Positions 4,377 to 28,237 of a DNA stretch of 64,000 bases are shown here, one piece after another. Position numbers and translations under genes: made by a program. The stretch comes from Rhizobium etli 8C-3. GTDB lineage: Bacteria; Pseudomonadota; Alphaproteobacteria; Rhizobiales; Rhizobiaceae. The DNA is taken from positions 1 through 64,000 of the forward strand of contig NZ_CP017242.1 of NCBI RefSeq assembly GCF_001908375.1. Direction: 5' to 3'. Numbering within the stretch: the first letter of the stretch is position 1; every line of letters starts with the position of its first letter. The notes under the pieces are model-generated. The model worked only from the letters and a program-made list of their open reading frames with translations, was not told where the DNA came from and did not search any database.

Positions 4377-6734
4377 CTATGCCGCCTCCCAAACCTGGTT
4401 CAGGATTTTTGCCGCGAGCGCCGCCTTGTCCTGCGGCAGGAACCGGCCGTAGTGCTGCTGCACCACGTCCGGCGTATCCTGGATCGCATAGCTCGCCTGC
4501 TCGTATGATCCTGTCTGCTTGAGGATATGGGTCGCGAGAATATCTCGCACATTGTGCGGCCCGTGCGGCAAAAGGCCCTTGATGGCGCCGCGACCGGTGT
4601 ACGGGTTGTAGATCCCATAGCGTTGAATGACGGTGCGCCAAGCCTCATAGAAGGTCGTTGAGTCGTAAGCGGCGTCGGTGCTAGTCGTCTTGACCGTCTT
4701 CACGAACAGGGTGCCGGGATCCTTCGCGCCGGCGAGCAACACATCGCGATGCCGGTCTATATAGGCGTCCAGGTAGTGGTAGAGGTCGAGCAGGTCGGGC
4801 AGGATCAGCCGGAACGGTTTTTGCCCGAAGAAGGACGAGCCGGAATTCTTGAAGGCGACCGAGGGGATGAGCACTTCCCAGCCACGCTCGCGCTCGCTCC
4901 AGCGCAGCTCCCCGCACTTCATGTCTTCCAGCCGCCGCTCCGCCGTCGGAAAATGACCACGCGGGCAGACCCGCAGCTGCCGAAGATTCTTCTGCCGCAG
5001 TCCCAGATGAAGTCCGAGCCGAAGCATAAGGAAGGAGCGGACGGCTTCGGCGGCCGGCCGCGGATAGAGATGTTCGTCCGGCATGCGCTTCAGGATCTCG
5101 TCGGTGATCTTGCGGTATTCGGCCAGCGGGCTATCCGCCTCCAGGATCACCATGATCGGTTCGAACGGATCGCGATGCACGCGCATGACCCGTTGAACTT
5201 CCTTGGAGCGATTGGCGGCATGCCGATGAAACGCGTCGCAGGCGCCGTGCCAGTCGCGTGAAGCGAATTCGATCTCCTCTGGCGCGATCAGCCCTTCGAT
5301 AGGGCGAACGTTCTTCAGAAGCTCCGGATGCTGCCGGATCCAGCCGACCTCGGCACGGGTGAGGGCCTGCGCCACCATCAGCATATCCTCTTCCCATTTG
5401 GTGTAGAAGCCGCGCCGCTGCTCGCGCCATTGCAGATACCAGTCCCAGACGCCCGGGAAGATCAGCAGACCGAAGGTTAGCTGGCTGAGTGGCACGCCGC
5501 GGCCTTTGACGATGCCGGCGGGTGAGGCGGCGAGAGCCCCGAACATCAGCCCGAGATGCTCGACCTTCTGCGATGCCGTTTCCACGCCCCAAACACCGTT
5601 GCGCTGAAAGCCGATCTCCGTCAGTGTCGAGGTCTTGAAGCGGATCAGGTCCGCCATCTCCATCACCAGCCGCGGCGGCGCGTCGACCACGCCGGAAAGA
5701 AGGTCCGGATCCTCGAAGGATTCTTCCGCTCTGCGGTTGGGGCCGCTGGTCAGCACGGGCGATCGCGGAGACAGGGATCCGCCGCCATAGGTGATGCCGG
5801 GAAAGCGGATGGCATAGCGCTGCTTGCTGGCCGCCGCCTGGTAGCGGCGATAATCGGTGGAGCCGGAGATGATGACACGGCGCACCCAGTCGATGATCTG
5901 CTCGCGCTTGGAGAACGGCAGGCTGCCAAAGTTATCCGGGAGATGCCAGGCCAGTCGCCGCCGCTCAGCGGAGCTGATATCGCCAAGGTCGTGACCATTG
6001 AGCGAGCGGGACTGATGCGGAAGCTTGGCCTTGAAATATCCCGGTGCCAGTCGGTAGCGCCGCTCGATGCGGGAGAGGATGTCGAAGCTGGCAATCGATC
6101 TCGGCGCGCGTTCGCCTTGGATCCATGACAACAGAGTCTTGTGGTCGAAAGTCTCGCCGAGACGAATGATCGCGCGATAGAGTTGCCAGTAACTGTCGCC
6201 GAAGCGGCGCATCTGATAGATGAGCGCATCCTGAAAGCTCTCGGGATCGTCTGCCGCTTCAAAGAGCGGTTCGGGAAATTCCTGGATCGGTTTCGGCTGT
6301 GGACCTGGCGATGCTGAGGCGGGTTGAGCCGCGGTGTTGTCGCTGCCCAGCCGTTGCGGCTTGCGGGTGGAGGATGCGGTCGGTGCTGGCGTCCGATGAT
6401 TGGGTTTGGTCGGTTTTGGTTTCGGCTTTGAATGCCGTATGTCTTCGGCCGCGGGCGGCAGGCGCAGCCATCGGAGGATGGCGTCGAGAGCAGGGCGCAG
6501 CTGGTTTTTCAGCTCCGGCGTCATCTCGTCCTCGATCCCGCACGCTTCACCGACCGCCTTCCAGTCGATGCGGCCGTTCAGCAACGGCGGTGATTTGCGG
6601 TAGATGATCAGGCTGATGAGATATGGCCGGATATTTTCCAGGACGTGTTTCGCTGCGATCGGCGCGATACGCACGTCGCAGAAGTCTGAGATTTTTCGTT
6701 CAAAATGACGTGAGGAAATATCTTCTTTTGGCAT
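4377..6734 (-). CDS. Large tyrosine recombinase (site-specific integrase)
   Basis: A 785-residue protein, much longer than phage integrases (about 350-450). Residues 1-160 look like an N-terminal DNA-binding part with a Pro/Lys/Thr-rich linker (about 100-150). The C-terminal third carries the catalytic pattern: LGLRQKNLRQL with the first Arg, HGPHNVRDI with the His-x-x-Arg box, and VVQQHYGRF with the nucleophile Tyr near residue 762. Such long recombinases are found in genomic islands. It is intact and sits at the left edge of the defence genes, so it is a candidate mobility enzyme for the island. I see no partner recombinase. Confidence 0.75.
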   Translation of the reverse strand: MPKEDISSRHFERKISDFCDVRIAPIAAKHVLENIRPYLISLIIYRKSPPLLNGRIDWKAVGEACGIEDEMTPELKNQLRPALDAILRWLRLPPAAEDIRHSKPKPKPTKPNHRTPAPTASSTRKPQRLGSDNTAAQPASASPGPQPKPIQEFPEPLFEAADDPESFQDALIYQMRRFGDSYWQLYRAIIRLGETFDHKTLLSWIQGERAPRSIASFDILSRIERRYRLAPGYFKAKLPHQSRSLNGHDLGDISSAERRRLAWHLPDNFGSLPFSKREQIIDWVRRVIISGSTDYRRYQAAASKQRYAIRFPGITYGGGSLSPRSPVLTSGPNRRAEESFEDPDLLSGVVDAPPRLVMEMADLIRFKTSTLTEIGFQRNGVWGVETASQKVEHLGLMFGALAASPAGIVKGRGVPLSQLTFGLLIFPGVWDWYLQWREQRRGFYTKWEEDMLMVAQALTRAEVGWIRQHPELLKNVRPIEGLIAPEEIEFASRDWHGACDAFHRHAANRSKEVQRVMRVHRDPFEPIMVILEADSPLAEYRKITDEILKRMPDEHLYPRPAAEAVRSFLMLRLGLHLGLRQKNLRQLRVCPRGHFPTAERRLEDMKCGELRWSERERGWEVLIPSVAFKNSGSSFFGQKPFRLILPDLLDLYHYLDAYIDRHRDVLLAGAKDPGTLFVKTVKTTSTDAAYDSTTFYEAWRTVIQRYGIYNPYTGRGAIKGLLPHGPHNVRDILATHILKQTGSYEQASYAIQDTPDVVQQHYGRFLPQDKAALAAKILNQVWEAA

Positions 6735-7148: not shown

Positions 7149-8798
7149 TCAAGCCGACAGTTTTCCGTCAGCCTCGGCATCACCATCGTCGAAACCAATG
7201 TCCTCTTCCAGCGTCTCGATCAAGACCTGCGCATCGTTTGCAGGCAGGATCTCGACATTGCGGAGCTTGCGGTTGATGGCGCGGCCGCGCACCTCGACGT
7301 TATCGATCTGGTTGGACGCTTCCTGCAGCTTCTTCTTGACCTTCTCCAGCACCGGCCCGAACTTGCCGAATTCCTCCTTGACCGCGGAAAGGACCTGCCA
7401 CACCTCGCTTGACCGCTCCTGGATTGCCAGCGTCCGGAAGCCCATCTGCAGACTGCTGAGGATGGCGGTGAGGGTTGTCGGTCCTGCCACTGTAACGCGA
7501 TAGGTTCGCTGGAGGTCGTCGCACAGCCCCGGGCGACGAATGATCTCGGCGTACAGCCCTTCCGTTGGCAGAAACAGGACTGCGAAATCTGTCGTCTTCG
7601 GTGGACGAATGTACTTGCTGGAGATGTCCTTGGCCGAATTCTTAATCCGGGTCTCAAGCGCCTTCGAGGCTTCCTCGACTGCGGCGGCGTCCCCGATCTC
7701 GGAGGCCGCCTGCAGCCGTTCGTAGTCCTCGATCGGGAATTTAGCGTCGATTGGCAGCAGGCATTCTTCGCTCTCGCCGGAGCCGGGAAGTCTGATTGCG
7801 TATTCGACCCGTTCGTTGCCGAATTCGGACGTGGTGGCATTGGCCACATATTGTGCAGGTGTCAATATTTGTTCAAGCAAAGCTCCCAGCTGCACCTCGC
7901 CCCACGACCCGCGTGATTTGACGTTCGTCAGCACGCGTTTCAAATCGCCGACGCCGGTCGCCAAGTTCTGCATTTCACCCAGGCCCTGATGAACCGCTTC
8001 GAGGCGTTCGCTGACGATCTTGAAGGAGTCTCCGAGCCGCTTGTCGAGCGTACCCTGCAACTTCTCATCGACGGTGACCCGCATCTGTTCGAGCTTCTCA
8101 CCATTCTCTTTGCGCAGTACGCCTAGCTGGTTTTCTACACTGAGCTTTAGTGCTTCGCCCGTCTGCGCGTTCTTCTCGCTCAACGCTTCCAGGCGGTTTC
8201 CAAAATCCTCGTGTTGGGCGCGCTGGATATCAAACATCTGCTGGTTCTGTTCGATCGAGTTCTTGGCAAAGCGGTCCAAGCTAGCTGTAACCGTTTCCGT
8301 CAGTGACTTTGTTCGCTCGCCGGCATCGGCTTTCATCGCATCGAGATTCTGGATGACCTGGTCACGAAGTTCGCGGAACGTGGTGAGGAGGGCTTCCTGG
8401 TTTTTGGAGAACTGCGTTGCGCTGTCGCTCGCCATCTGGCGAAGCGTCTGGGAAACCTGGTCCAAGTTCTCCTTCTGGTGTTTCGCCGCCTCGGCGGACT
8501 GCGTCCGCAAGGTTTCTGCGAGTGCCGCGATGCTCTTTGTGACCTCCTCACGCAAATTCTTGGCGGATGCCGTGCCTTCTTCGCGAGCAGCCCGAAGATC
8601 GTCGCGCACATTGCGCTCAATGCGCTCCTGGGCGATTTCCAGGGCGCTCAGCTTTGCCGCTGCGGGATCGGCATCAAGCTTTGCGGCCAACCGTGAAAAG
8701 CGGCTTATGATCACCAAAACAACGAGGAGCGATACGAAAGAGCTGAAGGCGGCCGCGCCCCACAAGCTCCACTGAATATATTCCTGATCCACGAGCAT
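7149..8798 (-). CDS. rmuC: DNA recombination protein RmuC family
   Basis: A 549-residue protein with one N-terminal membrane segment (about residues 10-33), a long coiled coil (about 45-290), and the conserved RmuC nuclease-like core (about 300-480) with RGSWGEVQLGALLEQIL, LLPIDAKFPIEDYERL and FLPTEGLYAEI. RmuC proteins limit inversions and recombination at repeats and are predicted to have a restriction-endonuclease fold; the Asp-Ala-Lys in the core fits that. It lies 152 bp downstream of the ubiquitin-like gene set on the same strand, so it may be a fifth gene of that unit or simply a neighbour with its own promoter. Confidence 0.85.
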   Translation of the reverse strand: MLVDQEYIQWSLWGAAAFSSFVSLLVVLVIISRFSRLAAKLDADPAAAKLSALEIAQERIERNVRDDLRAAREEGTASAKNLREEVTKSIAALAETLRTQSAEAAKHQKENLDQVSQTLRQMASDSATQFSKNQEALLTTFRELRDQVIQNLDAMKADAGERTKSLTETVTASLDRFAKNSIEQNQQMFDIQRAQHEDFGNRLEALSEKNAQTGEALKLSVENQLGVLRKENGEKLEQMRVTVDEKLQGTLDKRLGDSFKIVSERLEAVHQGLGEMQNLATGVGDLKRVLTNVKSRGSWGEVQLGALLEQILTPAQYVANATTSEFGNERVEYAIRLPGSGESEECLLPIDAKFPIEDYERLQAASEIGDAAAVEEASKALETRIKNSAKDISSKYIRPPKTTDFAVLFLPTEGLYAEIIRRPGLCDDLQRTYRVTVAGPTTLTAILSSLQMGFRTLAIQERSSEVWQVLSAVKEEFGKFGPVLEKVKKKLQEASNQIDNVEVRGRAINRKLRNVEILPANDAQVLIETLEEDIGFDDGDAEADGKLSA

Positions 8799-8950: not shown

Positions 8951-9349
8951 CTAGCTGCTCATGATAGACTTAAGCCAACGCCAAACGCGTACCCACCACC
9001 CCTCAGCATACAGTTCGGCGTAGTAGTGTTCGCGCCGACGCTCCTCGGCCGCGCGGCCGGCGGCAATTTGCTCGGGTGTCCACTCGGTGGACCACTCGAT
9101 CTTGCCCCGATCGATCCAATAGTGCGACTTGCAAGGACGCTGCCAATTGCCGATCGACGGTCGAAGCGACGGTCCTTGGGGGTGATCCGTGAAACACCAT
9201 TCGGTCGGCCCCAGGGGTGTCCGGACCTTTGAACCGCAGCCGCATGCGCACAAGTGCGCGGCAGTCTCGAACTCCTTCGACACATAGAGAACGCCCGGCT
9301 CAAGCTGAGCCGGCATAGTGCGCACGCGTTCTAGCTTAATCCTTATCAT
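8951..9349 (-). CDS. Small Cys-rich protein, DUF6527-like, partner of the Ubl/E1 genes
   Basis: A 132-residue protein. A CACGCG cluster (Cys34, 36, 38) and a later RPCKSHYWI motif (Cys73, His76) could bind a metal such as zinc. The C-terminal third is charged and aromatic (WWVRVWRWL). I recognise the pattern as the family usually named DUF6527, small proteins seen beside ThiF-type genes; the biochemical role is unknown to me. The start overlaps the E1 stop by 14 bp, so the two are translationally linked. In this set it occupies the place where an E2 or a deconjugating enzyme might be expected. Confidence 0.65.
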   Translation of the reverse strand: MIRIKLERVRTMPAQLEPGVLYVSKEFETAAHLCACGCGSKVRTPLGPTEWCFTDHPQGPSLRPSIGNWQRPCKSHYWIDRGKIEWSTEWTPEQIAAGRAAEERRREHYYAELYAEGWWVRVWRWLKSIMSS

Positions 9350-10529
9350 AAGTATCCCCGGTGAGACTAAAGTCGTCGATCCCGAAGAGCACGTGTCGAT
9401 ACCCCTCGGTGTCTCGATAGAAGCCCCGAATCTGCTTGTAGCGGATCACGGCGAGGCAGGCATTAAGCGCGTTCAGCTCGCCGATCTGGATGTTTGAACG
9501 ATAGATATCGTCGACCGCGTCGGACAGGTCGGCGAGCTTCCGGTCGCGCATCGTTGCACCCTCATCAACGGGATAGTAGGTGGCGCGCAGCATGCCACCA
9601 ATCGCGCCATGCTTGCGATTGAGACCCATGCCAACGTCGATGAAGGGAATGTTGCGAGAGATGAGCGCGCCGAAGATTCCTGCGCGCGACGATCCTTTAT
9701 CAACACACACGAAGGCGAAGGTGACGCCGTCGAGGCGCTCGGCAGTGTCTTGGTCGATGTAGGTGGCTTCGACTGTCAGCCCGTGCCGAAAATTGTCATA
9801 GCGAGCGCCGTAGACGGTGGCTTTCGCCGTCCGCAGTTCCTCATTGGCGAAGCGACCCGGGGAGCGAAACGCCGTATGGACATGGTAGGTGTCGCCATCA
9901 AACGCGCGGATATCAGGCACCGGCGTCTTGACCAGAAGATCGAGTAGATAGGCGCCGGTGCCGCCAAGTCCGATGATGGCCACCGTCTCCCCGGCGAACT
10001 CGGTGTTCAAGTCGCCGATCTGCGCGCGCGACGTTAGCGTGTCCTGAAGCTTGAATATTGGGTCGGGCTCGAAGGTTTCGACCACCCGATAGGTGAGGGG
10101 TGTCGCGGTGGGATGCCGCTCGATCGCAGGTCCGGAGATAATTGATACGTAGCTTTCAATCTTGGCGTAAAAATCAAGGAAGCTACCTTGGGGCATCGGC
10201 TTGTTGGAGAACGACCGCTGGACGACAACATCGGCGCACACGCTACTCAGTTGGATTCTCGTCTCACCACCGCCGAGGTTGCGGATGGGTGAGCCGTCAA
10301 GCTGATGGGGATGGCCGCCGGCAAAGTAGATCTGGTGGTCATCTTGCTGAACGTGCTCCTGGTCAATGAATACGAGCTTGGCGACGATCGCGCCGCTCTG
10401 CAGTGCGCCTTGCCGATCGAGATAGGGGATGTCACGCACGACGAGGCAATTGCTGTCGAACGCGACCGCATAGCCGCGCTCGACGAGCCGAGCGAGGTCG
10501 GGGTTACGACTGACCAGTTTCCGAAACAC
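9336..10529 (-). CDS. ThiF/E1-like adenylyltransferase with N-terminal E2-like or DUF6791-type domain
   Basis: A 397-residue protein from a GTG start. Residues about 180-300 form a ThiF/MoeB/E1 Rossmann core: IIGLGGTGAYLLDLL (glycine loop 187-192) and AFDGDTYHVHTAFRSPGR, equivalent to the conserved acidic and Asn/Arg region. Cys275 in FVCVDKGSS is a candidate active cysteine. Residues 1-150 are a separate domain (IPYLDRQGALQSG, DHQIYFAGGHPHQLDG), a type found fused to bacterial E1-like proteins. E1 enzymes adenylate the C-terminus of ubiquitin-like proteins. The gene overlaps the Ubl gene by 26 bp and the DUF6527 gene by 14 bp, a tight cassette. Confidence 0.8.
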   Translation of the reverse strand: MFRKLVSRNPDLARLVERGYAVAFDSNCLVVRDIPYLDRQGALQSGAIVAKLVFIDQEHVQQDDHQIYFAGGHPHQLDGSPIRNLGGGETRIQLSSVCADVVVQRSFSNKPMPQGSFLDFYAKIESYVSIISGPAIERHPTATPLTYRVVETFEPDPIFKLQDTLTSRAQIGDLNTEFAGETVAIIGLGGTGAYLLDLLVKTPVPDIRAFDGDTYHVHTAFRSPGRFANEELRTAKATVYGARYDNFRHGLTVEATYIDQDTAERLDGVTFAFVCVDKGSSRAGIFGALISRNIPFIDVGMGLNRKHGAIGGMLRATYYPVDEGATMRDRKLADLSDAVDDIYRSNIQIGELNALNACLAVIRYKQIRGFYRDTEGYRHVLFGIDDFSLTGDTYDKD

Positions 10530-10761
10530 TGAAGATCATCCCTTCTTTGACTTTGACCGAGGCGCCCGGCGCCAGTGCACCTTCGGGCTTGTTACCCTGG
10601 CCGCGCTTGTAGCGTACCGAGTAGGTGATCTCAGGGTGCTGGGCGTAATCCGGCACCTCGAGCGTCACCACCTCCTCGTAGCTGATGTCGCCCTTGGGCC
10701 AATCGTGTTCGGTACCCTCGACGACGATAGTGACCGTCTTGTTCGGCTGTTCGTTAACCAT
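10504..10761 (-). CDS. Ubiquitin-like (multiubiquitin-type) domain protein
   Basis: An 85-residue protein from ATG at 10761; a longer frame to 10824 has no RBS and would add a hydrophobic tail. The segments VTIVVEGTEHDW, YSVRYKRGQGNKPEG and VKVKEGMIFSV fit the beta-grasp pattern of bacterial multiubiquitin domains, here as a single copy. It ends Gly-Gln-Ser, not Gly-Gly, so either the tail is processed or this class uses another C-terminus. It overlaps the E1 gene by 26 bp and is probably its substrate. Confidence 0.7.
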   Translation of the reverse strand: MVNEQPNKTVTIVVEGTEHDWPKGDISYEEVVTLEVPDYAQHPEITYSVRYKRGQGNKPEGALAPGASVKVKEGMIFSVSETGQS

Positions 10762-10810
10762 CCGTGCGAATCTCCATATTCCGATTAGGCAGTATCGCAC
10801 TGGGTAGATG

Positions 10811-13800
10811 TCAGAAGCTGTCACCCCCGTATTCGCGCAGAATGCAAAGGGCGTTTACCAGCGACATTTCTTCGATCGTTCGGCAGGATGTTTCAAGCAG
10901 CAGCGGGCTGGCGAACACCATCGCTGCGGCCTGAGCGCGCGAGACAGCGACGTTGATGCGGTTCAGCGAGAACAGAAAAGAGATGTCGCGCGGTAGTTCC
11001 TCGCCGCTCGATGTCGTCATAGACACGAGACAGATTGGCGCCTCCTGACCTTGGAACCGGTCGACAGTGCCGACCCGCACCGCGCCCGGAAGTGCAGCGC
11101 GGAGGGCGTTCACCTGCGCATTGTAAGGAGCAACGACAAGGATGTCGGCGTTTCCGATGATACGCTCGCGGCCATCGCGATCACGATAAGTCGCGCCCTC
11201 GACCTCCGCTATCCGGGCCACAATGGCTTGGATTTCCTCGGGGCTCACCTGAGACCGACCGGCATGTGTGACGGCGCGCATGCTGGCACCCAGGAGATCG
11301 ATACCAGTGCGCGAGACGAGCGTCTGACTGCGCGCCGCGTCGTCGCTGCGGAGCCGCCCCTCGTAGACGGCCGTCGAAATGAAACCGCAGACCCGTGGGT
11401 GCATTCGGCGGCTGACGGGAATGAAAATGCCGCGGTCAGTTGGTACTACTCGGTGCCCATCGATCAGATATTCGAGGCACGAACGTCCACTGTCGCCGGG
11501 ATGGCTACCTTGCAGGGGTTGGGGCAGTTGCATGGGATCGCCGACTAGCACGATGTTGCGGCTGGATCTTGCCATGGCGAGGATGTTGGCTAGGGAGACT
11601 TGGCCAGCCTCGTCGACTACCAAATAGTCAAATGCTGCGTCGCTGTATCGGGCGAAATGCCACGCAGTTGCGCCGACAACATGTGCGGATGCGATCTCAG
11701 GCGCGTCATTATCGCTCACAAAAACAATGCCAGGATAGGCCTCTTCTTCGTCGTCGTCAGACGTCTTCTGAACGAGTCGGCAGTTCATGCCCTCCACCCG
11801 TGCTCGGTCTGCCACCGCCTTCAGCAAATTGCTAATCGCCTTATGGCTGTTCGAGGACACGGCGACACGCTTGCCTGCCCGGACAAGGTCCACGATCGAG
11901 AGCGCACTAACATACGTCTTGCCGCTCCCCGGCGGTCCCTGGATTGCCAGCGTAGAATCGGCCATTGCAGCGATTGCGCGGCTTGTTTCGACGGACAGGT
12001 CGCCGTCCCCTGAAATCAGGCCGGTGGACCGCTGACCGTCCACGAACCGGGGCCGGGAGCGGGTGAGCATGTCCTCGATGGCAGGGACCTGCCCAGTGTT
12101 GGCAATGATTTCCTCGGTTACCGCCGCGATCGCGTTCTTCAGGACGCTATTGCGCAGAGGCCTCGGCGGCAAGAGGTCAAGGCGATCGGGTAGAGGGCCT
12201 TTCGCCGTCGAGCGACGCAATACCAGCGTGTTCGAATCGTGGTTGATCGACCGCAGGTTAACGTCTTCTGGCATTGCTGCCGGCTTCAAGCATGGACTCT
12301 TGCCAGCACGCAGCTTCGTCTCCTGCTGTGGGAACCGGTATGTCCGTTCGAAGGACTGCTTCGTGACCTGCACAGGCTCGCTTACGGCCTCCAGGCCCTG
12401 GATACATTCGAGGTCGTCGAGCAGTTCCTCGCTTTCCTGCGCGAGGCGGTCGAAGATCGCCCAATAAGCCGGCTTGTCCTCGCGCTTGTGGAATTGGCTG
12501 AGGTCAAGCAGCAAATCGGCCACTTGGTCGCCGAGACGCTCTCGCACTGGCTGCAGTTTGGCGCGTAGGACTCTGATCTCCTCATTCTCTGCCTCGATAT
12601 TTGAGAGTGATCCGCCTTCGGGCACCTCGCCAAGGACTGGCCAAGCCATTCCCGTCGGGCGGACATCGCGGACAAGCCAATCGCGAAGCAATTGTGTCGA
12701 GATGCAGTCTGTACGATTGTAGTCGTGGATTTCGTCGAGCAGGCGCTGCTCGCCTGTGTGGCGCCACTCCTCGTAGAAGACGACGCTGCTCCCGGCGGTC
12801 GCGACGTCACCCGAACGCTTCTTCATGTAGAAGGCCTCGAGATCTTTGATAGAGTAGCCCTTCTCCGATGCGATCATGGCGCCGGAAACGACCTTGAATA
12901 GATCGACAAAGCGACGCTCGCGCTGGAGTTGATCTATCGCGGCCTCGCAGGTACGATGCTGCGCAGTCAGTCGCCGGAGTGCAGCAATCTCGTAGTTGGC
13001 ATAGTGATATACGTGGGCGTTTGGGTGCCGCCGCATATGCTCGACGAGGAAAGTCAGCAGGTCGGCCACCGAACGGCCCTCGTCCTCGCGGCTATGAGCC
13101 CAAAATGCCCGAAACGCCCACTCATCCTTTTCGCGGCACCAGACGCCGTGAAGGTACTCAAGCCCGCCCGGGAAGTACGGATCGCCCTCGATATCATAGA
13201 ATACGTCTCCCCCATCAGGGGCCGGCAGCAGGCCGAACCCTTTTCCAGCCTCCGCATTTCGGAGCTCGAAGGCCGGCGGCCCACCAGCTCGGCGGGCCGA
13301 CTGCAGGTGAGCCTGGGATACCAACTTGCGTTGAGTTTCGGCCGCCATTTTCGGCACGCGATCTTTGCATACAGCAAGAGCGGCCATCGTGGTAATGCCG
13401 ACTGCCTCGAGCTTCTGACGCTGAGACCTGGCGATGCCTGCAACCAGCGCCAGACTGTCGTCGGCGTCCCACTGCTTGGCACAATGGCTACTCCAACGAC
13501 ACAGGGTGCACGCCGACACGGGTTCGGACCGGGTCTCGGGGCGCTCCATGAGAAACACCTCCAGCATCCGCCGAGCGTGGCGTGCATAGGCCGATACTTC
13601 CGAAAGCCGGACAGTGAAGCGGCTACCGTCGCCCAACTGGAGGTGGGCGGCCTCTGGCGCCACGCCCTGCACTTTTTCGATGAGATCACTGTACAAACAG
13701 AGTTGGAGGACATGCTTTGGATCAGGCTTCCGCTTCAGCTTGGTGTCGACAACCTCGTACGACCACGCGCCGAGGTCGGAGGGTCTTTCGACGCGTTCAA

Positions 13801-14146
13801 GGAAGTCGCTGTAACCGCCCCATGCGCCATCGAGCAACGCGCCCTGGTAAATGATGTCGGGGCCAGTCCTCATCGCCTCGAGCGTCTGGCGTACCGACTC
13901 TTCGAGTGAAATGTTGTCCTTCGGAATCTCGATGACACTATGGCCATCCGCCTTCAGCCTCTCCAGGAACGCAACTTCGTGATCATCGCCCTGCTTCTGG
14001 AGTAGCTCGGCTTCAGGGCCGTCTTCATCGGGCTTAAGGTCGCCAACTTCGATTAAACGCAAATCCAAAGCCGTCGCATGGCGGCAGCCCTTGAACCGCA
14101 TGAGATCCGACGCACTCAGTCGTAACAAGTCCCCAATCAATCGCAT
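10811..14146 (-). CDS. RecB-like nuclease, RNase H-like and SF1 helicase fusion
   Basis: A 1111-residue protein. I chose ATG 14146 over 14188 because AAGGAG lies 7 bp upstream. Order of parts: a RecB/TM0106-like PD-(D/E)XK nuclease (about 1-235, with GYSDFL and VVDTKLKRK as catalytic parts and CTLCRWSSHC plus an early Cys resembling the Fe-S cluster of Dna2/AddB), a YprB-like RNase H exonuclease domain (VFYDIEGDP, about 315-500), and a superfamily 1 helicase (Walker A GPPGSGKT about 737-744, DEAGQ, VGDPMQLPQP, VGTVDRFQGQE). It would unwind and degrade DNA or RNA. It is followed after 49 bp by the Ubl gene, so it heads the putative operon. Confidence 0.85.
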   Translation of the reverse strand: MRLIGDLLRLSASDLMRFKGCRHATALDLRLIEVGDLKPDEDGPEAELLQKQGDDHEVAFLERLKADGHSVIEIPKDNISLEESVRQTLEAMRTGPDIIYQGALLDGAWGGYSDFLERVERPSDLGAWSYEVVDTKLKRKPDPKHVLQLCLYSDLIEKVQGVAPEAAHLQLGDGSRFTVRLSEVSAYARHARRMLEVFLMERPETRSEPVSACTLCRWSSHCAKQWDADDSLALVAGIARSQRQKLEAVGITTMAALAVCKDRVPKMAAETQRKLVSQAHLQSARRAGGPPAFELRNAEAGKGFGLLPAPDGGDVFYDIEGDPYFPGGLEYLHGVWCREKDEWAFRAFWAHSREDEGRSVADLLTFLVEHMRRHPNAHVYHYANYEIAALRRLTAQHRTCEAAIDQLQRERRFVDLFKVVSGAMIASEKGYSIKDLEAFYMKKRSGDVATAGSSVVFYEEWRHTGEQRLLDEIHDYNRTDCISTQLLRDWLVRDVRPTGMAWPVLGEVPEGGSLSNIEAENEEIRVLRAKLQPVRERLGDQVADLLLDLSQFHKREDKPAYWAIFDRLAQESEELLDDLECIQGLEAVSEPVQVTKQSFERTYRFPQQETKLRAGKSPCLKPAAMPEDVNLRSINHDSNTLVLRRSTAKGPLPDRLDLLPPRPLRNSVLKNAIAAVTEEIIANTGQVPAIEDMLTRSRPRFVDGQRSTGLISGDGDLSVETSRAIAAMADSTLAIQGPPGSGKTYVSALSIVDLVRAGKRVAVSSNSHKAISNLLKAVADRARVEGMNCRLVQKTSDDDEEEAYPGIVFVSDNDAPEIASAHVVGATAWHFARYSDAAFDYLVVDEAGQVSLANILAMARSSRNIVLVGDPMQLPQPLQGSHPGDSGRSCLEYLIDGHRVVPTDRGIFIPVSRRMHPRVCGFISTAVYEGRLRSDDAARSQTLVSRTGIDLLGASMRAVTHAGRSQVSPEEIQAIVARIAEVEGATYRDRDGRERIIGNADILVVAPYNAQVNALRAALPGAVRVGTVDRFQGQEAPICLVSMTTSSGEELPRDISFLFSLNRINVAVSRAQAAAMVFASPLLLETSCRTIEEMSLVNALCILREYGGDSF

Positions 14147-14207
14147 GCGCAATCTCCTTTCTTCCGCTATAGCTGAAAAGGGCGACAAAAGCTGTCACGG
14201 TGATTCT
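14147..14207. promoter_or_regulatory. Divergent regulatory gap between nuclease-helicase and WYL genes
   Basis: Only 61 bp separate the two start codons, so both promoters must overlap here or extend into the genes. It contains an inverted GACA-N5-TGTC element (GACAAAAGCTGTC, about 14183-14195) directly upstream of the WYL start. Since WYL proteins commonly bind their own promoter region, this is the most likely operator controlling both directions. Confidence 0.4.
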
Positions 14208-15200
14208 ATGTCTTTCGCGAAGGCTCAGGAGCTTCTCAAGCTAGCGATGATGGCGACCCGCCGAGGGGGCGTGTCACTTGAGGAAATCATCGAAGAGTTC
14301 GGTTGCGTGCATCGGTCAGCGCAGCGCATGACGGTCGCATTGGAGGCTGCATTTCCCCAGACGCAGTCTGATGATGGCGACGATCGCAAGCGCCGTTGGA
14401 GAATCCCGGCACGGGCGATCGCACCTCTCTTGACCCCCTCGGCTGAGGAACTCGCTGCGTTAAGTACGGCAATCACCGAACTTGAAACGGCTGGAATGAA
14501 GCCTGAAGCTGGTACGGTTCGCGAACTCGAGCGAAAGATCCGGGCCCTTATTCCGCCGGAGGCCGGGACGAGGCTCGCGGTCGATGAAGAAGCGCTGCTC
14601 GAAGCCTTAGGACACGCGGCCCGACCGGGACCGCGCCCCGCTGTCAGCAGTGAGGTCGACGCGGCGATCTCTGAAGCGCTCAAGGGGCCGTTCCTGCTGC
14701 GGATATCTTACCGTAAGCGAAAGCAGGACAAGCCGACTGAACGGGTGATTGCGCCTCACGGCCTGCTTCTTGGAGTGCGTCGCTACTTGGTCGCGAGAGA
14801 CACGGCAAAGAAGCCCGGAGCACCGTTGCAGCACTACCGCGTCGAGGAAATCTACTCGGCCGAGGTACTCGATGAGAGCTTCGATCTCGATCCCGGTTTC
14901 AACATCCGCAGGCACGCGGAGAAGGGCTTCGGGTCGTACGAAAGCGCCGCAGAGCACGGCGATGTCGTATGGCGGTTCTCGCCGGACGCCGCGCCCCACG
15001 CGCGCCGATTCGTATTCCATCCGACACAGACCATAGAGGAGGAGCCTGACGGCTCGCTGCTTGTGCGCTTCAAGGCGTCCGGCCTCCTCGAGATGTGTTG
15101 GCATCTCTACTCTTGGGGAAACTCGGTGGAAGTGCTCCAGCCCGCACGGCTGCGCGAGATGGTGAACGGGCACCAGCGCAGATTCGACGCGCTGCCGTGA
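14208..15200 (+). CDS. WYL-domain transcriptional regulator
   Basis: A 330-residue protein starting at MSFAKAQELL; upstream codons of the open frame overlap the divergent gene's leader. It has an N-terminal winged helix (VSLEEIIEEFGCVHRSAQRMT), a WYL domain (about 170-250, with ISYRKRKQDKPTERVIAPHGLL and YLVARD), and a C-terminal WCX part ending LLEMCWHLYSWGNSVEVLQPARLREMV (in pieces). WYL regulators often repress phage-defence operons until a nucleic-acid signal arrives. Its position, divergent from the nuclease-Ubl-E1 genes, suggests it controls them. Confidence 0.85.
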   Translation: MSFAKAQELLKLAMMATRRGGVSLEEIIEEFGCVHRSAQRMTVALEAAFPQTQSDDGDDRKRRWRIPARAIAPLLTPSAEELAALSTAITELETAGMKPEAGTVRELERKIRALIPPEAGTRLAVDEEALLEALGHAARPGPRPAVSSEVDAAISEALKGPFLLRISYRKRKQDKPTERVIAPHGLLLGVRRYLVARDTAKKPGAPLQHYRVEEIYSAEVLDESFDLDPGFNIRRHAEKGFGSYESAAEHGDVVWRFSPDAAPHARRFVFHPTQTIEEEPDGSLLVRFKASGLLEMCWHLYSWGNSVEVLQPARLREMVNGHQRRFDALP

Positions 15201-15363: not shown

Positions 15364-16713
15364 ATGAGAATGGATTGGGAGAAACTGCTCTGCAGTGAAC
15401 GGCTTGGCGACAAGCATTATGAGCCTAGGCCGAACCGGTCGATCTTCGTTCAGGATCATGACCGCATTGTTTTCTCTGCGCCATTCCGGCGACTAGCCAA
15501 CAAGACCCAGGTCCAACCTCTCTACGAGCATGATCACGTCCACCACCGCCTAATCCATTCCGTCGAAGTCAGTAGCGTCGGACGATCGCTAGCCATGCGA
15601 ATTGGTAATTGGCTTGAGGAAACACATCGGATCGCCAGCGGCGAGTCCAACAGCTTGGCGAACATTGTTCAGGCAGCTTGCGTCGCCCACGATATCGGCA
15701 ATCCCCCCTTCGGCCATTCAGGCGAAGCGGCGATGGGCGACTGGTTCGCGGAGAAGTTCGATGATGCCAAAGGGATGATGGCGGAGGTCGAGGATCAACA
15801 CCGCTCAGAATTCGTGAGGTTTGAAGGCAACGCACAGGGATTTCGAATTATTTCGCGGCTTGAGATGTACCGCAATGATGGCGGCATGCGCCTGTCCAAG
15901 GCAACTTTGGGGGCGTTCACGAAATATCCGACCACTTCTGCCGTCCGCGAGAGTATTGTCGGCAGTGGAGATGTGACATATGTCGGCCTCAAGAAGTTCG
16001 GCATCTTCAGTTCCGAAATAGAGCTGTTCAAGGAAGCGGCCAATTCGTTGGGGCTTCCTGAAGAAGTGGACCGCATTGGGAATTGGTGGCGTCGGCATCC
16101 GCTGGTGTTCATTGTCGAAGCCGCAGACGATATCTGCTATAACATCGTCGATCTTGAGGACGCCTTCACGACTGGTGAGCTCCCATTTGATACGGTCAGA
16201 GGGCTCTTGCACGAGGCAGCGAACAACCCGAACCGCGATGTGAGTAGCCTCAGCCCCGCCGAACATATCGCGTTATTGCGGGCATTGAGCATTGGGGCCG
16301 CAGTCGAAAGTTGCGTGGAGGCCTTCAAGACCAACTACGATGCGATTATGGCTGGAACGTTCTCTCGTTCTTTGGCTGATGCAGGGCCGATGGCCTCTGT
16401 CTTCGCAAAAATGAAGGCCCTGTCTCGGGACCAGGTCTTCACGGCCCGAAGAAAGACTGAGTTGGAAGTGTCTGGGCGGCGTGTGATAGGCAACGTGATG
16501 TCAGGTGTACTTCCTGTCTTCGAAGATCTTTTTAGGGTCAATTGGGATCCGGATGGGCTTTCCGACCACACACGGCAGCTCGCTAGGGCGCTCGACTTGG
16601 ACTTGCGAGACGTTGCCGATGCAGAGCGTGCTCTGCATGCTCTTGCTGACTTCACGTCGGGCATGACTGATCGATATGCTGTGAGGATCGCGAGGATGCT
16701 CAGCGGTATCTAA
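15364..16713 (+). CDS. dgt: dGTP triphosphohydrolase (dGTPase)
   Basis: A 449-residue HD-domain enzyme. Motifs: RPNRSIFVQDHDRIVFS, FRRLANKTQV, HRLIHSVEVSSVGRS with the first metal His, CVAHDIGNPPFGHSGE with the His-Asp pair, and EAADDICYNIVDLED. These match dGTPases that split dGTP into deoxyguanosine and triphosphate. Housekeeping copies exist, but in defence islands such enzymes starve phages of dNTPs. It follows the WYL gene on the same strand after a 163-bp gap with no obvious terminator. An in-frame ATG at 15373 is an alternative start. Confidence 0.85.
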   Translation: MRMDWEKLLCSERLGDKHYEPRPNRSIFVQDHDRIVFSAPFRRLANKTQVQPLYEHDHVHHRLIHSVEVSSVGRSLAMRIGNWLEETHRIASGESNSLANIVQAACVAHDIGNPPFGHSGEAAMGDWFAEKFDDAKGMMAEVEDQHRSEFVRFEGNAQGFRIISRLEMYRNDGGMRLSKATLGAFTKYPTTSAVRESIVGSGDVTYVGLKKFGIFSSEIELFKEAANSLGLPEEVDRIGNWWRRHPLVFIVEAADDICYNIVDLEDAFTTGELPFDTVRGLLHEAANNPNRDVSSLSPAEHIALLRALSIGAAVESCVEAFKTNYDAIMAGTFSRSLADAGPMASVFAKMKALSRDQVFTARRKTELEVSGRRVIGNVMSGVLPVFEDLFRVNWDPDGLSDHTRQLARALDLDLRDVADAERALHALADFTSGMTDRYAVRIARMLSGI

Positions 16714-17082: not shown

Positions 17083-17112
17083 TTGACACGGCGCGCGGCG
17101 CGCGCATTCTAT
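17083..17112 (+). promoter_or_regulatory. Likely sigma70-type promoter of the DUF4062-SIR2 gene
   Basis: A perfect -35 TTGACA (17083-17088) is followed after 18 bp of pure GC repeat sequence (CGGCGCGCGGCGCGCGCA) by TTCTAT (17107-17112) as a weak -10. Transcription would then begin after the ATG at 17111, which supports the downstream TTG at 17132 as the start. Confidence 0.4.
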
Positions 17113-17131
17113 GCCGCACCGGAGGAAACGC

Positions 17132-18460
17132 TTGTCCAGCAAGTTGCGCGTGTTCGTGAGCAGCACGATGAAGGATCTCGGCGACGCTCGGCGAGCAGTG
17201 GTCGAGCGACTGCGATCGTTGAACCTTGAGCCGGTTAACGCCGAAGATATGAATCCGGATGGTCGCTCGAGTTGGGATGTTATCCGATCTGAGATTGATA
17301 CGTCTAATATTTTCATACTGTTGAGCGGCGAGAGCTATGGCTGGATCCCCACTTCTGGACCTGGCGCGGGAGAAGGGCGGTCGGTGACGCATATGGAGGC
17401 GCTTTACGCAAACGCCTTGGGGCTCCCGATCCTGCCGTTCTTCAAGCGCCTAGCCTACGATGCCCCTCGCGATACCGATGACGCAAATGCGCGAGATGCT
17501 TTCCGCCACGAGGTCGGCGATTGGGAGGCTGGCCGATTTCGGCAGGAGTTCGAGTGGATTGATGAACTCAGCAGAAAGGTCGGCAACACTCTGCTCGACC
17601 TCTTTCAGAGTTCTTTGCTCCGCGAGATGGCTGCTCGGCCGCGAACTGGGATTCGCTCCCTGACCGGAGGGTCTAGCACTGCATTCGATAGGGTGCCTCT
17701 ACCGGAAGGTTTCGTCGGCCGCGACCCTGTCCTCTTCGCAGGCGCCGGAGTGTCGGTTTCTGCGGGCCTGCCCACAGCGGCGGTCATGACTGAGTTGTTC
17801 GGATCTCGGCTGTCGCTGGGTGCGGATGGCGAGAGAATCCTCGCGCGTCATCGTTTCGCCGATGTTGCGTCGGTGCTCGAACGCCGCTTCGGCCGCGCCG
17901 AGCTGGAACGAGCGGTTGTCCAGGCGTTCGACACCGCGCAGGGGGTCGTGCCGACAGCGGGGCATCTTGCAGCAGTTTCTACGTTCCGCCACATCGTAAC
18001 TACCAACTACGACGACCTGTTCGAGCGAGCGTGCCTAGCCAGAGGCGTGACGTACACTGTCCGTTCCCCGAACGGCGAAACCAGAGGTGTCGGGTCACAG
18101 GTGACTATCTTTCAGGTGGATGGCTGGATTGGGCTCCCCTCGGCGTTGGTTATAACTGAGGAGGACGCTGCGCGCGCGCGCCAAGACGCTCAATATTGGG
18201 ACGATGTGGCTTCCGCGATCGGCGACCGTCCAGTGGTAGTTGTGGGCCACTCGCTTCGTGATGAAAATGCCCGCCGCGTGCTCACACGGCGCGGCGGCGG
18301 TCCTGCCCTGTATGTTTCGCTCATCGATGATCCAATGGATCAGATTGTGCGCGAACGGTTCGGCTTGGCGACGTGCATTGCCAGTGCGGACGACTTTCTC
18401 CAGTCCTTTGAAGCTGCTACCCATGCATCTGGCGGGCCGGCAACGAATCACCTCGCCTAG
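17132..18460 (+). CDS. DUF4062-SIR2 fusion protein
   Basis: A 442-residue protein from TTG 17132, which has GGAGGA 5 bp upstream; ATG 17111 overlaps the probable -10. The N-terminal part (about 1-150) is a DUF4062 domain (LRVFVSSTMKDLGDARRAV, IFILLSGESYGWIP), a TIR-like fold seen in STAND and defence proteins. The C-terminal part (about 190-430) is SIR2-like: VLFAGAGVSVSAGLP (NAD-binding loop), HIVTTNYDDLFE, and VVVGHSLRDENARR. SIR2 domains in defence proteins break down NAD+. The pairing of a possible sensor or second NAD-linked domain with SIR2 suggests a one-protein abortive-infection effector. Confidence 0.75.
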   Translation: MSSKLRVFVSSTMKDLGDARRAVVERLRSLNLEPVNAEDMNPDGRSSWDVIRSEIDTSNIFILLSGESYGWIPTSGPGAGEGRSVTHMEALYANALGLPILPFFKRLAYDAPRDTDDANARDAFRHEVGDWEAGRFRQEFEWIDELSRKVGNTLLDLFQSSLLREMAARPRTGIRSLTGGSSTAFDRVPLPEGFVGRDPVLFAGAGVSVSAGLPTAAVMTELFGSRLSLGADGERILARHRFADVASVLERRFGRAELERAVVQAFDTAQGVVPTAGHLAAVSTFRHIVTTNYDDLFERACLARGVTYTVRSPNGETRGVGSQVTIFQVDGWIGLPSALVITEEDAARARQDAQYWDDVASAIGDRPVVVVGHSLRDENARRVLTRRGGGPALYVSLIDDPMDQIVRERFGLATCIASADDFLQSFEAATHASGGPATNHLA

Positions 18461-18660
18461 CCTGTCTCCCCCAGAGTACCAGTCGGCTAACCACTTAAAA
18501 AGGGCCGCCGGTCAGTAGTAGCCACGCTGCCGCCATCGTCTCCAATGCGGTTGGAAGTGACAGCCTTCGCAGACGATCACAATAGACAGGCGAGATCGAG
18601 CGTGGAATGATGCGCTGGTAGCTCGAATCAAGGATGCGGAGCTAACGTCGGGGGCGTAAG

Positions 18661-19872
18661 TTGACTGTCAGTGTTCACAATCCTGATCAATATATGGCGG
18701 CGCTACGGACGATCATAGCGCAGGGCCGCAAGCGGATCGGGCTGTTGGTTGGCGCCGGAGCCTCTGCCGGCATGGCCAAGCCTGATGGTACTTATCCGCT
18801 TATCCCGGCGGTTGCGGGCCTCACCGATCAGGTTCTCACGACACTTGCGCCGACCTATCAACAACAGATCGACGGCCTGAAAGCCGAGCTCGCGCAGCAC
18901 GACATTGAGACGATCCTTTCTCGGATTCGCTCTCTGAGCAAAGTGATCGGATCGGCAAAAGTCCACGACCTCGATGGCCCCGGCTTTGCCACTTTCGGCG
19001 AAGCGATCTGCACCGAGATCGGCAAGATCGTGGACGTTCGATTGCCGGAGACCGGATCGGCTTATGCCGCTCTCGTGAACTGGATCACGGGCACAATGCG
19101 TGACTACCCGGTCGAGATTTTCACCACGAACTACGACCTGCTGTTCGAAGAAGCGTTGGAGTCCGTGCGCGCGCCGTATTTCGATGGCTTCACGGGCGGT
19201 CGCGAGCCGTTCTTCGACCCAGTGTCAGTGTCGCGCAGCGACCTTCCCGCGCGATGGACGCGGCTCTGGAAGCTCCATGGCTCACTCGGCTGGCGTGCGA
19301 GCTCGAAGGGAGAAGTGATCCGAACGGGCCAAAGCTCGGTAAGTCACCTCGTCTTCCCCGAACATCTGAAATACGATCAGACGCAGAAGGCCCCATACGC
19401 CGCGTTGCTCGATCGGCTTCGTGCGTTCTTGCTCACCCCCGACACGCTGCTGGTCTCTATCGGCTTCTCCTTTGCCGACGCACATATTGCAGCCCGGTTG
19501 GATGAAGCGCTGGCAGCGAATCCATCCTCCAGCGTTTTCGCGTTCCAGTACAAGGTCCTCGAGGAAGAGGGGCCAGCGTGCGATCTTGCGCGCCGCCTGC
19601 CAAACTTCAGCGTCTATGCGCGTGACCAGGCCAAGGTGAACGGCATTCGCGGCCCATGGAAGGCGCCGGCCGAACTTCCGAACAGGGATTGGGGGCCGAT
19701 AAGGTCGACCTATCTCGACAAGGACGGAAACTTCACGCTCGGAGCGATCGAACCCTTCGCCCGGTTCTTCGCAGCATCGCGCTCGGTTCAAGCATTTCCC
19801 ACACCATCGGCGCTGACAGCAACAGCGGCGGCAACGCCACCGCCGGCAGCCACCACCGCGTCGGTGGCCTGA
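18661..19872 (+). CDS. SIR2-family protein (SIR2-HerA system)
   Basis: A 403-residue protein from a TTG start; ATG 18694 is an alternative. SIR2 features: RIGLLVGAGASAGMAKP (nucleotide loop near residue 27), IFTTNYDLLFEEAL, LWKLHGSLGW and LLVSIGFSFADAHI. The C-terminus is low-complexity Ala/Thr/Pro. The stop codon overlaps the HerA start (ATGA), so both are made together. SIR2/HerA pairs are known antiphage systems in which the complex depletes NAD+ or attacks DNA after infection. Confidence 0.85.
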   Translation: MTVSVHNPDQYMAALRTIIAQGRKRIGLLVGAGASAGMAKPDGTYPLIPAVAGLTDQVLTTLAPTYQQQIDGLKAELAQHDIETILSRIRSLSKVIGSAKVHDLDGPGFATFGEAICTEIGKIVDVRLPETGSAYAALVNWITGTMRDYPVEIFTTNYDLLFEEALESVRAPYFDGFTGGREPFFDPVSVSRSDLPARWTRLWKLHGSLGWRASSKGEVIRTGQSSVSHLVFPEHLKYDQTQKAPYAALLDRLRAFLLTPDTLLVSIGFSFADAHIAARLDEALAANPSSSVFAFQYKVLEEEGPACDLARRLPNFSVYARDQAKVNGIRGPWKAPAELPNRDWGPIRSTYLDKDGNFTLGAIEPFARFFAASRSVQAFPTPSALTATAAATPPPAATTASVA

Positions 19873-26577: not shown

Positions 26578-26617
26578 GGATGATCCCCATGGTCCGAGCT
26601 GTCGAAATGCGGTAAGT

Positions 26618-26668
26618 CTATTAATCAAACGGGTACGTCCTGTCCAGTTAATATGAATGTGTCCGTCA
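26618..26668 (-). promoter_or_regulatory. Receptor promoter with TetR-type operator and iron box
   Basis: On the minus strand: -35 TGGACA (26641-26646) and -10 TAATAG (26618-26623) with 17 bp between. The spacer holds a degenerate copy (26629-26643) of the palindrome ACGGGACGGTCCCGT that is perfect at the two biosynthetic promoters. Upstream of -35 lies ATATGA-N9-TCAAC (core TGA-N9-TCA at 26654-26668), the form of the rhizobial iron-responsive (RirA-type) box. In this copy the asymmetric box is reversed relative to the other two. Confidence 0.6.
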
Positions 26669-26674
26669 ACTTTA

Positions 26675-26690
26675 AAGACGCGCACGTCTT
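26675..26690. repeat. Inverted repeat upstream of tetR
   Basis: A 16-bp element AAGACGCGCACGTCTT with 6-bp perfect arms, 37 bp before the tetR start. It is a candidate second operator, for autoregulation of the TetR gene. Confidence 0.35.
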
Positions 26691-26726
26691 GAAACTGGTC
26701 GGGATCTGGCGAGACGGAGAAAAAGT

Positions 26727-27380
26727 ATGGTCGCAAAAAGCATGAGCGCCGTGGCGAGAATAGGCCGACCTCCAAAGGCGAGCCAGGATATGGCTGCTGA
26801 GAGAATTATACTTGCCGCTACAGAGCTTTTTGCGGGCAGAGGGTTTGCCGGCACCTCGATGGAGCAGGTGGCCGCGCATTGCGGGGCGGGCAAGGACACC
26901 GTCTATCGCCGGTTCCCGTCGAAGGTCGTCCTGTTCGAAGCGGTGGTCGACCATGCGCACAAGAGCGCTGTCGCAAGACTTGACAAACTACCTGCGGTTT
27001 CCGGCGATCCGCTCGAACGTTTGAAATCCCTTTTGCTCGAGCTTCTATACGTCAACATGGAGCCGGAACTGATCGCACTGAAGCGCATCACCTTTAGTGA
27101 AGCGGTTGTTTTCGAAAAGAACGGGCCGATACCGCCGCAGCCCGACCCGATCATGGCGAAATTGATTGAAACCGTGGGCGAAGCGCAGGAGACAGGTGCG
27201 ATCTGCGCCGGCGACGCAACCGGGATTGCCTGCCATCTCATTCACTGTATGGTCGCGTTGCCGACGACCGCGGCGATGATGGGCAGCAATGAGTTCGATA
27301 GACGTCAGGATATCGAAGCGCATTTTCACAGGACATGGCACTGGCTTATCAATGGTGTGAGTTGCAACAGGATTTCGTAA
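26727..27380 (+). CDS. TetR-family regulator of the siderophore cluster
   Basis: A 217-residue protein. The N-terminal helix-turn-helix reads ILAATELFAGRGFAGTSMEQVAAHCGAGKDTVYRRFPSK (in pieces, about residues 28-66), with the classic TetR layout; the rest is a ligand-binding helical domain with a C-terminal TetR_C-like segment. It is divergent from the receptor gene and followed by the phosphopantetheinyl transferase 37 bp on. The palindromes at the receptor and biosynthetic promoters are the likely operators. The inducer may be the siderophore or an intermediate. Confidence 0.88.
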   Translation: MVAKSMSAVARIGRPPKASQDMAAERIILAATELFAGRGFAGTSMEQVAAHCGAGKDTVYRRFPSKVVLFEAVVDHAHKSAVARLDKLPAVSGDPLERLKSLLLELLYVNMEPELIALKRITFSEAVVFEKNGPIPPQPDPIMAKLIETVGEAQETGAICAGDATGIACHLIHCMVALPTTAAMMGSNEFDRRQDIEAHFHRTWHWLINGVSCNRIS

Positions 27381-27417
27381 CGGCATCGGTGCAGGGGAAC
27401 GATCTTAAACCGGAAGC

Positions 27418-28220: not shown

Positions 28221-28237
28221 GGTCCGAATTTGACCGG

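Follow-up and report, generated by a model that had tools for sequence, protein, structure and literature searches.

Genes and features of the locus

The window analysed here comprises the first 64 kb (positions 1 to 64,000) of the 431-kb contig NZ_CP017242.1 of Rhizobium etli 8C-3, whose 7.3-Mb genome is in four contigs. It contains a set of four minus-strand genes in which a large nuclease-helicase is followed by a cassette for a ubiquitin-like protein (Ubl), an E1-like enzyme and a small DUF6527 protein, and which is faced by the divergent gene of a WYL-type regulator. An earlier note on this DNA, made from the letters alone, had reported the four minus-strand genes, and a check of the open reading frames (ORFs) recovers all of them at the same coordinates; the divergent WYL gene, the dGTPase gene and rmuC were absent from its account. 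The features are as follows (aa, amino acids; nt, nucleotides; SF1, superfamily 1; Fe-S, iron-sulphur):

10811..14146, minus strand: Fe-S RecB/Cas4-like nuclease with RNase_H_2 and a UPF1/DNA2-type SF1 helicase; 1111 aa from the ATG at 14146; opens the minus-strand set
10504..10761, minus strand: Ubl with a single Multi_ubiq domain and the tail TGQS; 85 aa
10504..10529, minus strand: dual-coding overlap of the Ubl C-terminus and the E1 N-terminus; 26 nt
9336..10529, minus strand: E1-like enzyme with DUF6791 (residues 10-164) and a ThiF adenylation domain; 397 aa, GTG start
8951..9349, minus strand: DUF6527 protein; 132 aa; H32, C34, C36, C38, C73 and H76 identical in 73/73
14208..15200, plus strand: WYL/WCX regulator, predicted DriD-like; 330 aa; divergent, 61 nt from the nuclease start
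14184..14196, minus strand: operator-like dyad GAC-N7-GTC, GACAGCTTTTGTC, in the WYL/nuclease intergenic region
14166..14173, minus strand: −10-like GCTATAGC, within which TATAGC begins 12 nt past the dyad
7149..8798, minus strand: RmuC gene, next downstream of the DUF6527 gene (by Pfam and related plasmids)
15364..16713, plus strand: dGTP triphosphohydrolase gene (dgt) beside the WYL gene (by Pfam, NCBIfam and related loci)

The description of the genes as overlapping holds for Ubl and E1 (26 nt) and for E1 and DUF6527 (14 nt), and fails for the nuclease and Ubl genes, which lie 49 nt apart. The proposed Fe-S site agrees with the alignment, in which C21, C213, C216 and C222 are identical in 37/37 nucleases, the window included. 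By Pfam the protein contains RNase_H_2 (4e-28), AAA_12 (2e-22) and AAA_11 (3e-16), by NCBIfam it is a TM0106 RecB-like nuclease (5e-89), and the nuclease DxK, RNase H DxE...D and Walker A/B residues, which we take to be catalytic, are each conserved at 97% or more among the same 37 proteins. An upstream TTG offers an alternative start, which would give 1125 aa. The domain order and catalytic sites are like those of TM0106-family RecB-like nucleases with a UPF1/DNA2-type helicase, from which the window protein differs in having a WYL partner and a changeable downstream cargo.

The whole block, dgt-WYL-nuclease-Ubl-E1-DUF6527-rmuC, is identical in order on plasmids of Rhizobium sp. Pop5 and NZLR1 (L006 and L007), and the same block without rmuC is present in Rhizobiales bacterium AFS078673 (L025) at 79-92% protein identity. 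The rmuC gene, which accompanies the block in L006 and L007 and was not found with it in L025, stands directly behind the nuclease in another locus, L157; dgt is kept in L006, L007 and L025, and a piece of it also in L011.

By Pfam the regulator matches WCX (1e-15) and WYL (2e-6), and its best solved chains are 9pfq (1.5e-49) and 8tp8 (1.7e-49), over residues 3-320. In the excerpts of PMC12340889 that bear on it, 9PFQ is the complex of DriD with single-stranded DNA (ssDNA) and polymerase, and from its sequence the window protein is predicted to be DriD-like along its whole length (helix-turn-helix (HTH), WYL, WCX). The same excerpts give the DriD site as ATACGAC(X)7GTCGTAT, which overlaps the −35 element and keeps a constant spacing to the −10 element, and quote the Caulobacter −10 consensus that we used for comparison. 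Core (GAC-N7-GTC) and spacing are the same in the window, in a predicted promoter and at the place where an overlap with −35 would be expected, whereas the outer bases of the DriD site differ. A strict GAC/GTC dyad with N7, in either order, occurs in 20/26 intergenic regions, against 1.43 expected on shuffling, a figure that serves as a guide; a TA lies exactly 12 nt past the dyad in 18 of these 20 loci, and a looser pattern is found in 24/26 rows, one of which is a duplicate (L165). A divergent WYL gene with a promoter dyad is also the arrangement of CapW/BrxR/DriD-type control; in contrast to it, the nuclease-helicase here separates the regulator from the defence operon, and the dyad spacing is that of DriD.

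The Ubl cassette and its relatives

Pfam assigns the Ubl to Multi_ubiq (PF14452, 4e-15, one domain), the E1 to DUF6791 (PF20590, 1e-42) followed by ThiF (PF00899, 4e-6; 26.8 bits, just missing the cut-off of 28.1), and the small protein to DUF6527 (PF20137, 2e-23); by NCBIfam the E1 is PRK06153 (9e-177). Relatives were collected with nine E1 queries, and the counts given here refer to the best 80 of 549, that is, to the closest relatives of the E1; the plasmid neighbourhoods opened were, among E1 records, 10 of 114, to which the partial L008 is added, and, among nuclease records, a further 8 of 199. DUF6527 is present in 79/80 kept loci, close behind the E1 in 78 and 2.6 kb on in L053, and was not found in L086. 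The window Ubl as query recovers a Ubl in 74/80 loci, and ten Ubl queries together recover one in all except L084, where the contig breaks inside the E1. The nuclease-helicase is found in just one of the 80, L025, a member of the same rhizobial lineage (in L036 and L084 the sequence upstream is too short to judge), and the hosts span about a dozen phyla, plus one cyanobacterial plasmid. Ubl, DUF6791-ThiF E1 and DUF6527 are a self-contained cassette that occurs elsewhere independently of the nuclease.

The Ubl stop lies 26 nt past the aligned E1 Met1 in 83/90 loci (79 genome loci, 10 plasmid loci and the window), so the same bases encode the Ubl tail and the E1 start. Of these 83, 76 have ATG, GTG or TTG at the aligned first E1 codon; in the remaining 7 the next start is 15 nt upstream. 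The 26-nt overlap does not hold in six Bacteroidota loci (where the value is −6 or −7) and in the disrupted L079. Shared descent explains the constancy of this overlap; what is unusual about the shared coding is that it has been kept across many phyla and hardly ever lost over such a distance. The tail itself reads T-x-x-S, with T and S each in 88/89 Ubls, and a GG tail occurs in 0/89. We considered that TxxS might be a by-product of dual coding and rejected this: the six Bacteroidota loci without overlap still end HTGQS, and the tail therefore seems to be selected for itself.

Across the 73 aligned E1s (72/80 loci and the window; left out were L044, with an in-frame stop, and L053, L079, L084, L086, L087, L090 and L097) there is no universal cysteine. 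Cys275, which the earlier note had proposed to mutate, is present in 66/73 and replaced by Ser or Ala in 7/73, and a catalytic role is therefore unlikely. Identical in 73/73 are H65, S108, K110, Y127 and D163 in DUF6791 and D211, K236 and D277 in ThiF. In DUF6527, aligned from 72/80 loci (without L053, L056, L079, L081, L086, L087, L090 and L097), the pattern C34-x3-C38-x34-C73-x2-H76 is invariant in 73/73, and the full invariant set would supply two possible ligands beyond the need of one zinc. Predicted models reach a predicted local distance difference test (pLDDT) score of 90.7 for the E1 and 91.6 for DUF6527. The best fold match of the DUF6527 model has an E-value of 0.67, with none under 0.6, and most of the 50 matches listed for the E1 model span about 225-275 of 397 residues, which suggests that only the ThiF half is matched.

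The absence of a canonical E2 and of a JAB domain, the common strand, the position close behind the nuclease-helicase and the defence-type setting were rightly described in the earlier note. By Pfam, no Prok-E2 match was obtained in the nine window proteins scanned, and no JAB match on the E1 at E-values up to 0.1. That such a search can detect these parts is shown by L013 (plasmid pRL1 of R. leguminosarum TpK), with its Prok-E2_E at 2.3e-35 in the E2 and Prok-JAB at 1e-5 in the E1. The set in L013 (13432-16948) consists of Multi_ubiq, Prok-E2_E, JAB-ThiF and DUF6527 genes followed by a ClpP-like serine protease gene, and lies 1-5 kb behind a WYL-nuclease head, on the opposite strand and convergent to it.

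Among known systems, the cassette matches row 6e of Iyer, Burroughs and Aravind 2006, and as a set of genes it is not new. As described in section 14 of PMC1779556, group 6e includes a version in which an uncharacterised amino-terminal domain of the E1 replaces JAB. The excerpted description shares with the window a Ubl of one to three repeats, a small metal-binding protein, a sporadic distribution and a non-JAB domain with conserved charged residues at the N-terminus of the E1, which from its position we infer to be DUF6791. In contrast to that description, the window has no RWD/E2-like gene, a single Ubl domain and a WYL-nuclease-helicase at its head, and the metal motif given there, C-x3-C-x(35-38)-H-x2-C, has its last two ligands swapped in the window and its spacing one short.

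The closest solved E1 is Citrobacter BubCD, both by profile (7.9e-9, with tRNA dehydratase 4d7a next at 8.6e-9) and by Foldseek with the model (8.8e-12, with ThiF next at 6.3e-11); according to the PDB titles it was solved in complexes with BubB and BubA. The Ubl profile matches 9cd2 (8.5e-52), a multi-ubiquitin protein that ends TDKS and so has a TxxS tail like the window Ubl, and weakly Citrobacter BubA (9ea8, 0.004). The Multi_ubiq-type Ubl, the E1 adenylation domain and the DNA-damage-type upstream regulators are like those of Bub (BubA/BubB/BubCD), whereas the window has neither a BubB-type E2 nor JAB (BubD) and carries DUF6791 in the JAB position; with E1 and Ubl fitting and E2 and JAB failing, we call the cassette Bub-like only. 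The excerpts of PMC13373217 count CapW or CapH+CapP with 219/544 Bub operons, and according to them protection against phage by Bub has not been demonstrated; excerpts of PMC12687455 and PMC11354881 also bear on such systems. Literature searches turned up neither the WYL-nuclease pair nor the cassette, and the non-JAB variant may be covered in Ye 2026, Gong 2025 and Chambers 2024. Nor did excerpts from the paper on CoCoNuT (PMC11090510) and from a survey of WYL proteins (PMC9122601) contain the pair. Identity with Bil (BilA-D), with which the window has the Ubl and E1 logic in common, was rejected for lack of an E2 and a JAB, and the PADLOC E1-E2 matches are weak and to the ThiF part. Bil itself we take to possess an E2 and a JAB-type deubiquitinase and no nuclease-helicase.

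What stands upstream of the cassette elsewhere was counted in 147 ORFs from 77 loci (at most two per locus; 75/77 yielded an ORF, and the near-duplicates L087, L090 and L097 were dropped): 40 match M78 peptidases and 7 match WYL. The cassettes often sit behind HTH and M78-peptidase genes, as in L026, the closest relative outside the lineage (Ubl 89%, E1 72%). Three of the opened plasmids have a UvrD-type protein at the head of the cassette, and such a protein is present upstream, at 90% of its length or more, in 5/80 loci (L095 and L097-L100); in L021, the single one scanned, it is M78-UvrD-PDDEXK by Pfam. UvrD-headed cassettes occur in Agrobacterium, Leptolyngbya, Acinetobacter, Stenotrophomonas, Kluyvera, Massilia and a Gemmataceae metagenome-assembled genome, and so cover Alpha-, Beta- and Gammaproteobacteria, Cyanobacteria and Planctomycetes. 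In L019 (1365-8616), L020 (1451-8658) and L021 (1445-8652) the order is regulator, 190-aa protein, UvrD-type helicase, triple-domain Ubl, E1 and DUF6527, six genes whose order is common to Alpha- and Gammaproteobacteria and Cyanobacteria. The neighbours of Ubl cassettes of this type thus include enzymes of DNA processing and regulators of the damage type, which come from several families that are not related; such company is in keeping with a pathway that is induced by DNA damage or acts there, and does not single out the window nuclease.

Further copies were seen along the way. The genome itself has a second cassette on contig C3 (L177:7923-15730), a DUF6791-ThiF/DUF6527 pair with an E1 identity of 36%, behind which lie an ORF of 895 aa and a UvrD-like one of 1053 aa; a query with the window Ubl did not recover its Ubl. 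On plasmid p_3 of M. huakuii (L008:9971-11102), a copy with 85% E1 identity matches residues 160-397 only, near RES and Xre-type genes, and looks like a remnant, as the DUF6791 half is missing. The E1 had no match in phage records and matched 7 loci in viral contigs.

WYL-nuclease heads and their cargo

Among 394 genomes of the family searched, 21 have the nuclease, 17 the WYL protein and 14 both. The heads examined number 27: those of the window and of L025, 10 on plasmids and 15 more from genome searches (L165, from the same genome as L025, was dropped from the head counts and the tree). The WYL gene is upstream and divergent in 27/27 (in L013 by annotation), within about 120 nt in 24 and farther away in L170, L172 and L174. 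At lower-identity nuclease relatives (L159-L164, L178-L183 and L186, mostly 35-49%) the window WYL query found no divergent WYL gene. On the other side, an ORF on the same strand starts no more than 200 nt from the nuclease stop in 22 of the 26 heads whose 3' flank can be read (L011 via an unannotated 85-aa ORF only), or 24/26 if the annotated small genes of L013 and L014 are added, and in 12 of the 22 the gap is −4 to 3 nt. The cargo behind the nuclease is distributed as follows:

McrBC: six heads (L016, L158, L166, L169, L170, L173)
TmtA, usually with a small gene between: six heads (L015, L018, L167, L171, L184; L172 by ORF length 1512 and neighbour only)
Ubl trio: four (window, L006, L007, L025)
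Cyclic oligonucleotide-based antiphage signalling system (CBASS), Trip13 and CD-NTase cyclase: L012
Mza: L174
Mre11/Rad50-like (metallophosphoesterase and SMC-like pair): L017
Cytosine methyltransferase and uncharacterised genes: L011
RmuC: L157
Uncharacterised type: L014, L168
Nothing identified close on the same strand: L013 (small annotated gene only), L175, L176
Contig ends behind the nuclease: L185

In L011, L012, L013, L014 and L157, DNA homology to the window stops at 10788-10811, within about 25 nt of the nuclease stop at 10811, and L157 matches the window again inside rmuC. L011 is 96% identical to the window over 4.7 kb of WYL and nuclease, yet carries the methyltransferase cargo, and in the nuclease tree it joins L007, a Ubl locus, with support of 99/98 inside the Ubl group; the cargo has therefore been replaced within that group. 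On this tree, for which long-branch warnings apply, to L015 above all, 13 cargo changes are needed for 26 tips, where the minimum possible is 11 and the shuffled mean 17.8. Cargo is in part passed down by descent and has been swapped repeatedly.

These counts bear on the earlier note's joining of nuclease and Ubl into one system: a conserved partnership is not supported, with one of 80 E1 loci and with Ubl cargo in 2/17 heads from the class and family genome searches. For the case that the note named as refuting, adjacency by chance, the outcome is divided. The linkage is kept over about 13% protein divergence (window, Pop5, NZLR1 and AFS078673), and is therefore not a one-off; it is confined to one lineage, inside which cargo has been replaced.

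Interpretation and alternatives

What kind of system do these parts form? Our preferred reading, to which we give a reasonable though far from complete degree of belief, is a WYL-nuclease head, inducible by DNA damage, with a slot for exchangeable defence genes that is occupied here by a Bub-like Ubl cassette. The locus probably consists of two modules in one transcription unit, the head being the DriD-like WYL regulator with the divergent Fe-S nuclease / RNase H / SF1 helicase and the cargo the Ubl, the DUF6791-ThiF E1 and DUF6527, and the two look more like parts that can be plugged in separately than like a single dedicated machine. Attack by phage, or damage of another kind, would generate ssDNA, to which the WYL protein would bind, and the ssDNA-bound form would then act at GAC-N7-GTC in the −35 region and switch on the nuclease gene and the genes behind it. 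The nuclease-helicase would unwind and cut damaged or invading nucleic acid. In the co-induced cassette, the TxxS tail of the Ubl would be adenylated on the ThiF domain, and the Ubl may be joined to target proteins with no need of a thioester at a conserved E1 cysteine, with DUF6791 and the metal-site DUF6527 taking over the transfer or targeting that E2 and JAB perform elsewhere. The two arms would have a common switch and not necessarily a common substrate.

Several points weigh against this. The dyad pattern was drawn after 13 regions had been viewed, and the rows are related. The strict dyad is missing in 6/26 regions, and distant loci mostly have the reverse order GTC-N7-GAC. The window WYL protein may activate, as DriD does, or repress, as CapW does. 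In L175 and L176 the first 1.1 kb behind the nuclease contain no co-directional ORF, and the nuclease may therefore work alone; in L014 and L168 the cargo is of uncharacterised type. The heads are clustered by descent and 10/27 come from a hand-picked plasmid list, so that their counts are not independent. Finally, M78-UvrD-PDDEXK neighbours in other phyla speak for a closer tie between helicase-nuclease and Ubl than a view of two modules allows.

The alternative that fares best is that the two halves are mere neighbours in a defence island, the WYL-nuclease being complete in itself and the Ubl cassette working separately. Each half does occur without the other, two heads lack near co-directional cargo, and SIR2/DUF4062 and SIR2 and HerA genes lie just outside the block; we nonetheless regard it as unlikely, as the same-strand ORFs so close behind most heads, at a gap of −4 to 3 nt in 12 cases, and the homology breaks at the nuclease stop codon point to a slot that is used. 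Still less probable, in our view, is a dedicated nuclease-Ubl conjugation system in which attachment of the Ubl to the nuclease-helicase, or to a protein of the phage, would control the nuclease. The nuclease is present in a single E1 locus of the 80 and keeps its WYL partner as the cargo changes, and the UvrD proteins, which together with the 895- and UvrD-like 1053-aa ORFs on contig C3 show the cassette adjoining other helicase-nucleases, belong to a different helicase family; order and spacing retained in four loci over about 13% protein divergence speak for such a system. We likewise doubt that the cassette is a ThiS/MoaD-like carrier or a self-assembling Ubl merely activated by the E1 rather than a protein conjugator, as the lack of a GG tail, universal E1 cysteine and E2 might suggest, given that BubCD, solved in complexes with BubB and BubA, is the nearest E1 of known structure, that the TxxS tail is like that of 9cd2, and that no biosynthetic family is prominent among 25 of 68 upstream families listed.

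A broader form of the preferred reading, with its exchangeable slot, is possible and is offered tentatively: WYL protein and nuclease-helicase might be a general-purpose immune head, in which an ssDNA-sensing switch is paired with an enzyme that makes or trims the ssDNA keeping the switch on, and in which a defined 3' slot takes unrelated effectors (CBASS, McrBC, Mza, TmtA, Ubl conjugation). If so, a single DNA-damage sensor would have several effectors that can stand in for one another, the ubiquitin-like pathway among them. That rare conjugation cassettes come under DNA-damage control would be explained by a reusable head whose cargo can be exchanged, and reading the genes behind WYL-nuclease pairs would be a quick route to unknown defence systems. 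The cassette, for its part, offers a clean test case of ubiquitin-like chemistry without a conserved E1 cysteine, a canonical E2, a diglycine tail or JAB.

Elsewhere in the window, a DUF4062-SIR2 gene and then SIR2 and HerA-type ATPase genes as overlapping ORFs lie just outside the block at 17111-21677 and are likely to be further defence genes. On the other side, a 785-aa ORF (4377-6734), in DNA shared with L006 and L007 next to the block, gives no Pfam match above the cut-off; its C-terminus presumably resembles a tyrosine recombinase. Farther away (24427-41211), large nonribosomal peptide synthetase-like ORFs with a phosphopantetheinyl-transferase-like ORF (27418-28212) and adjoining TonB-receptor-like and binding-protein-like ORFs, as judged by eye, are perhaps a siderophore cluster.

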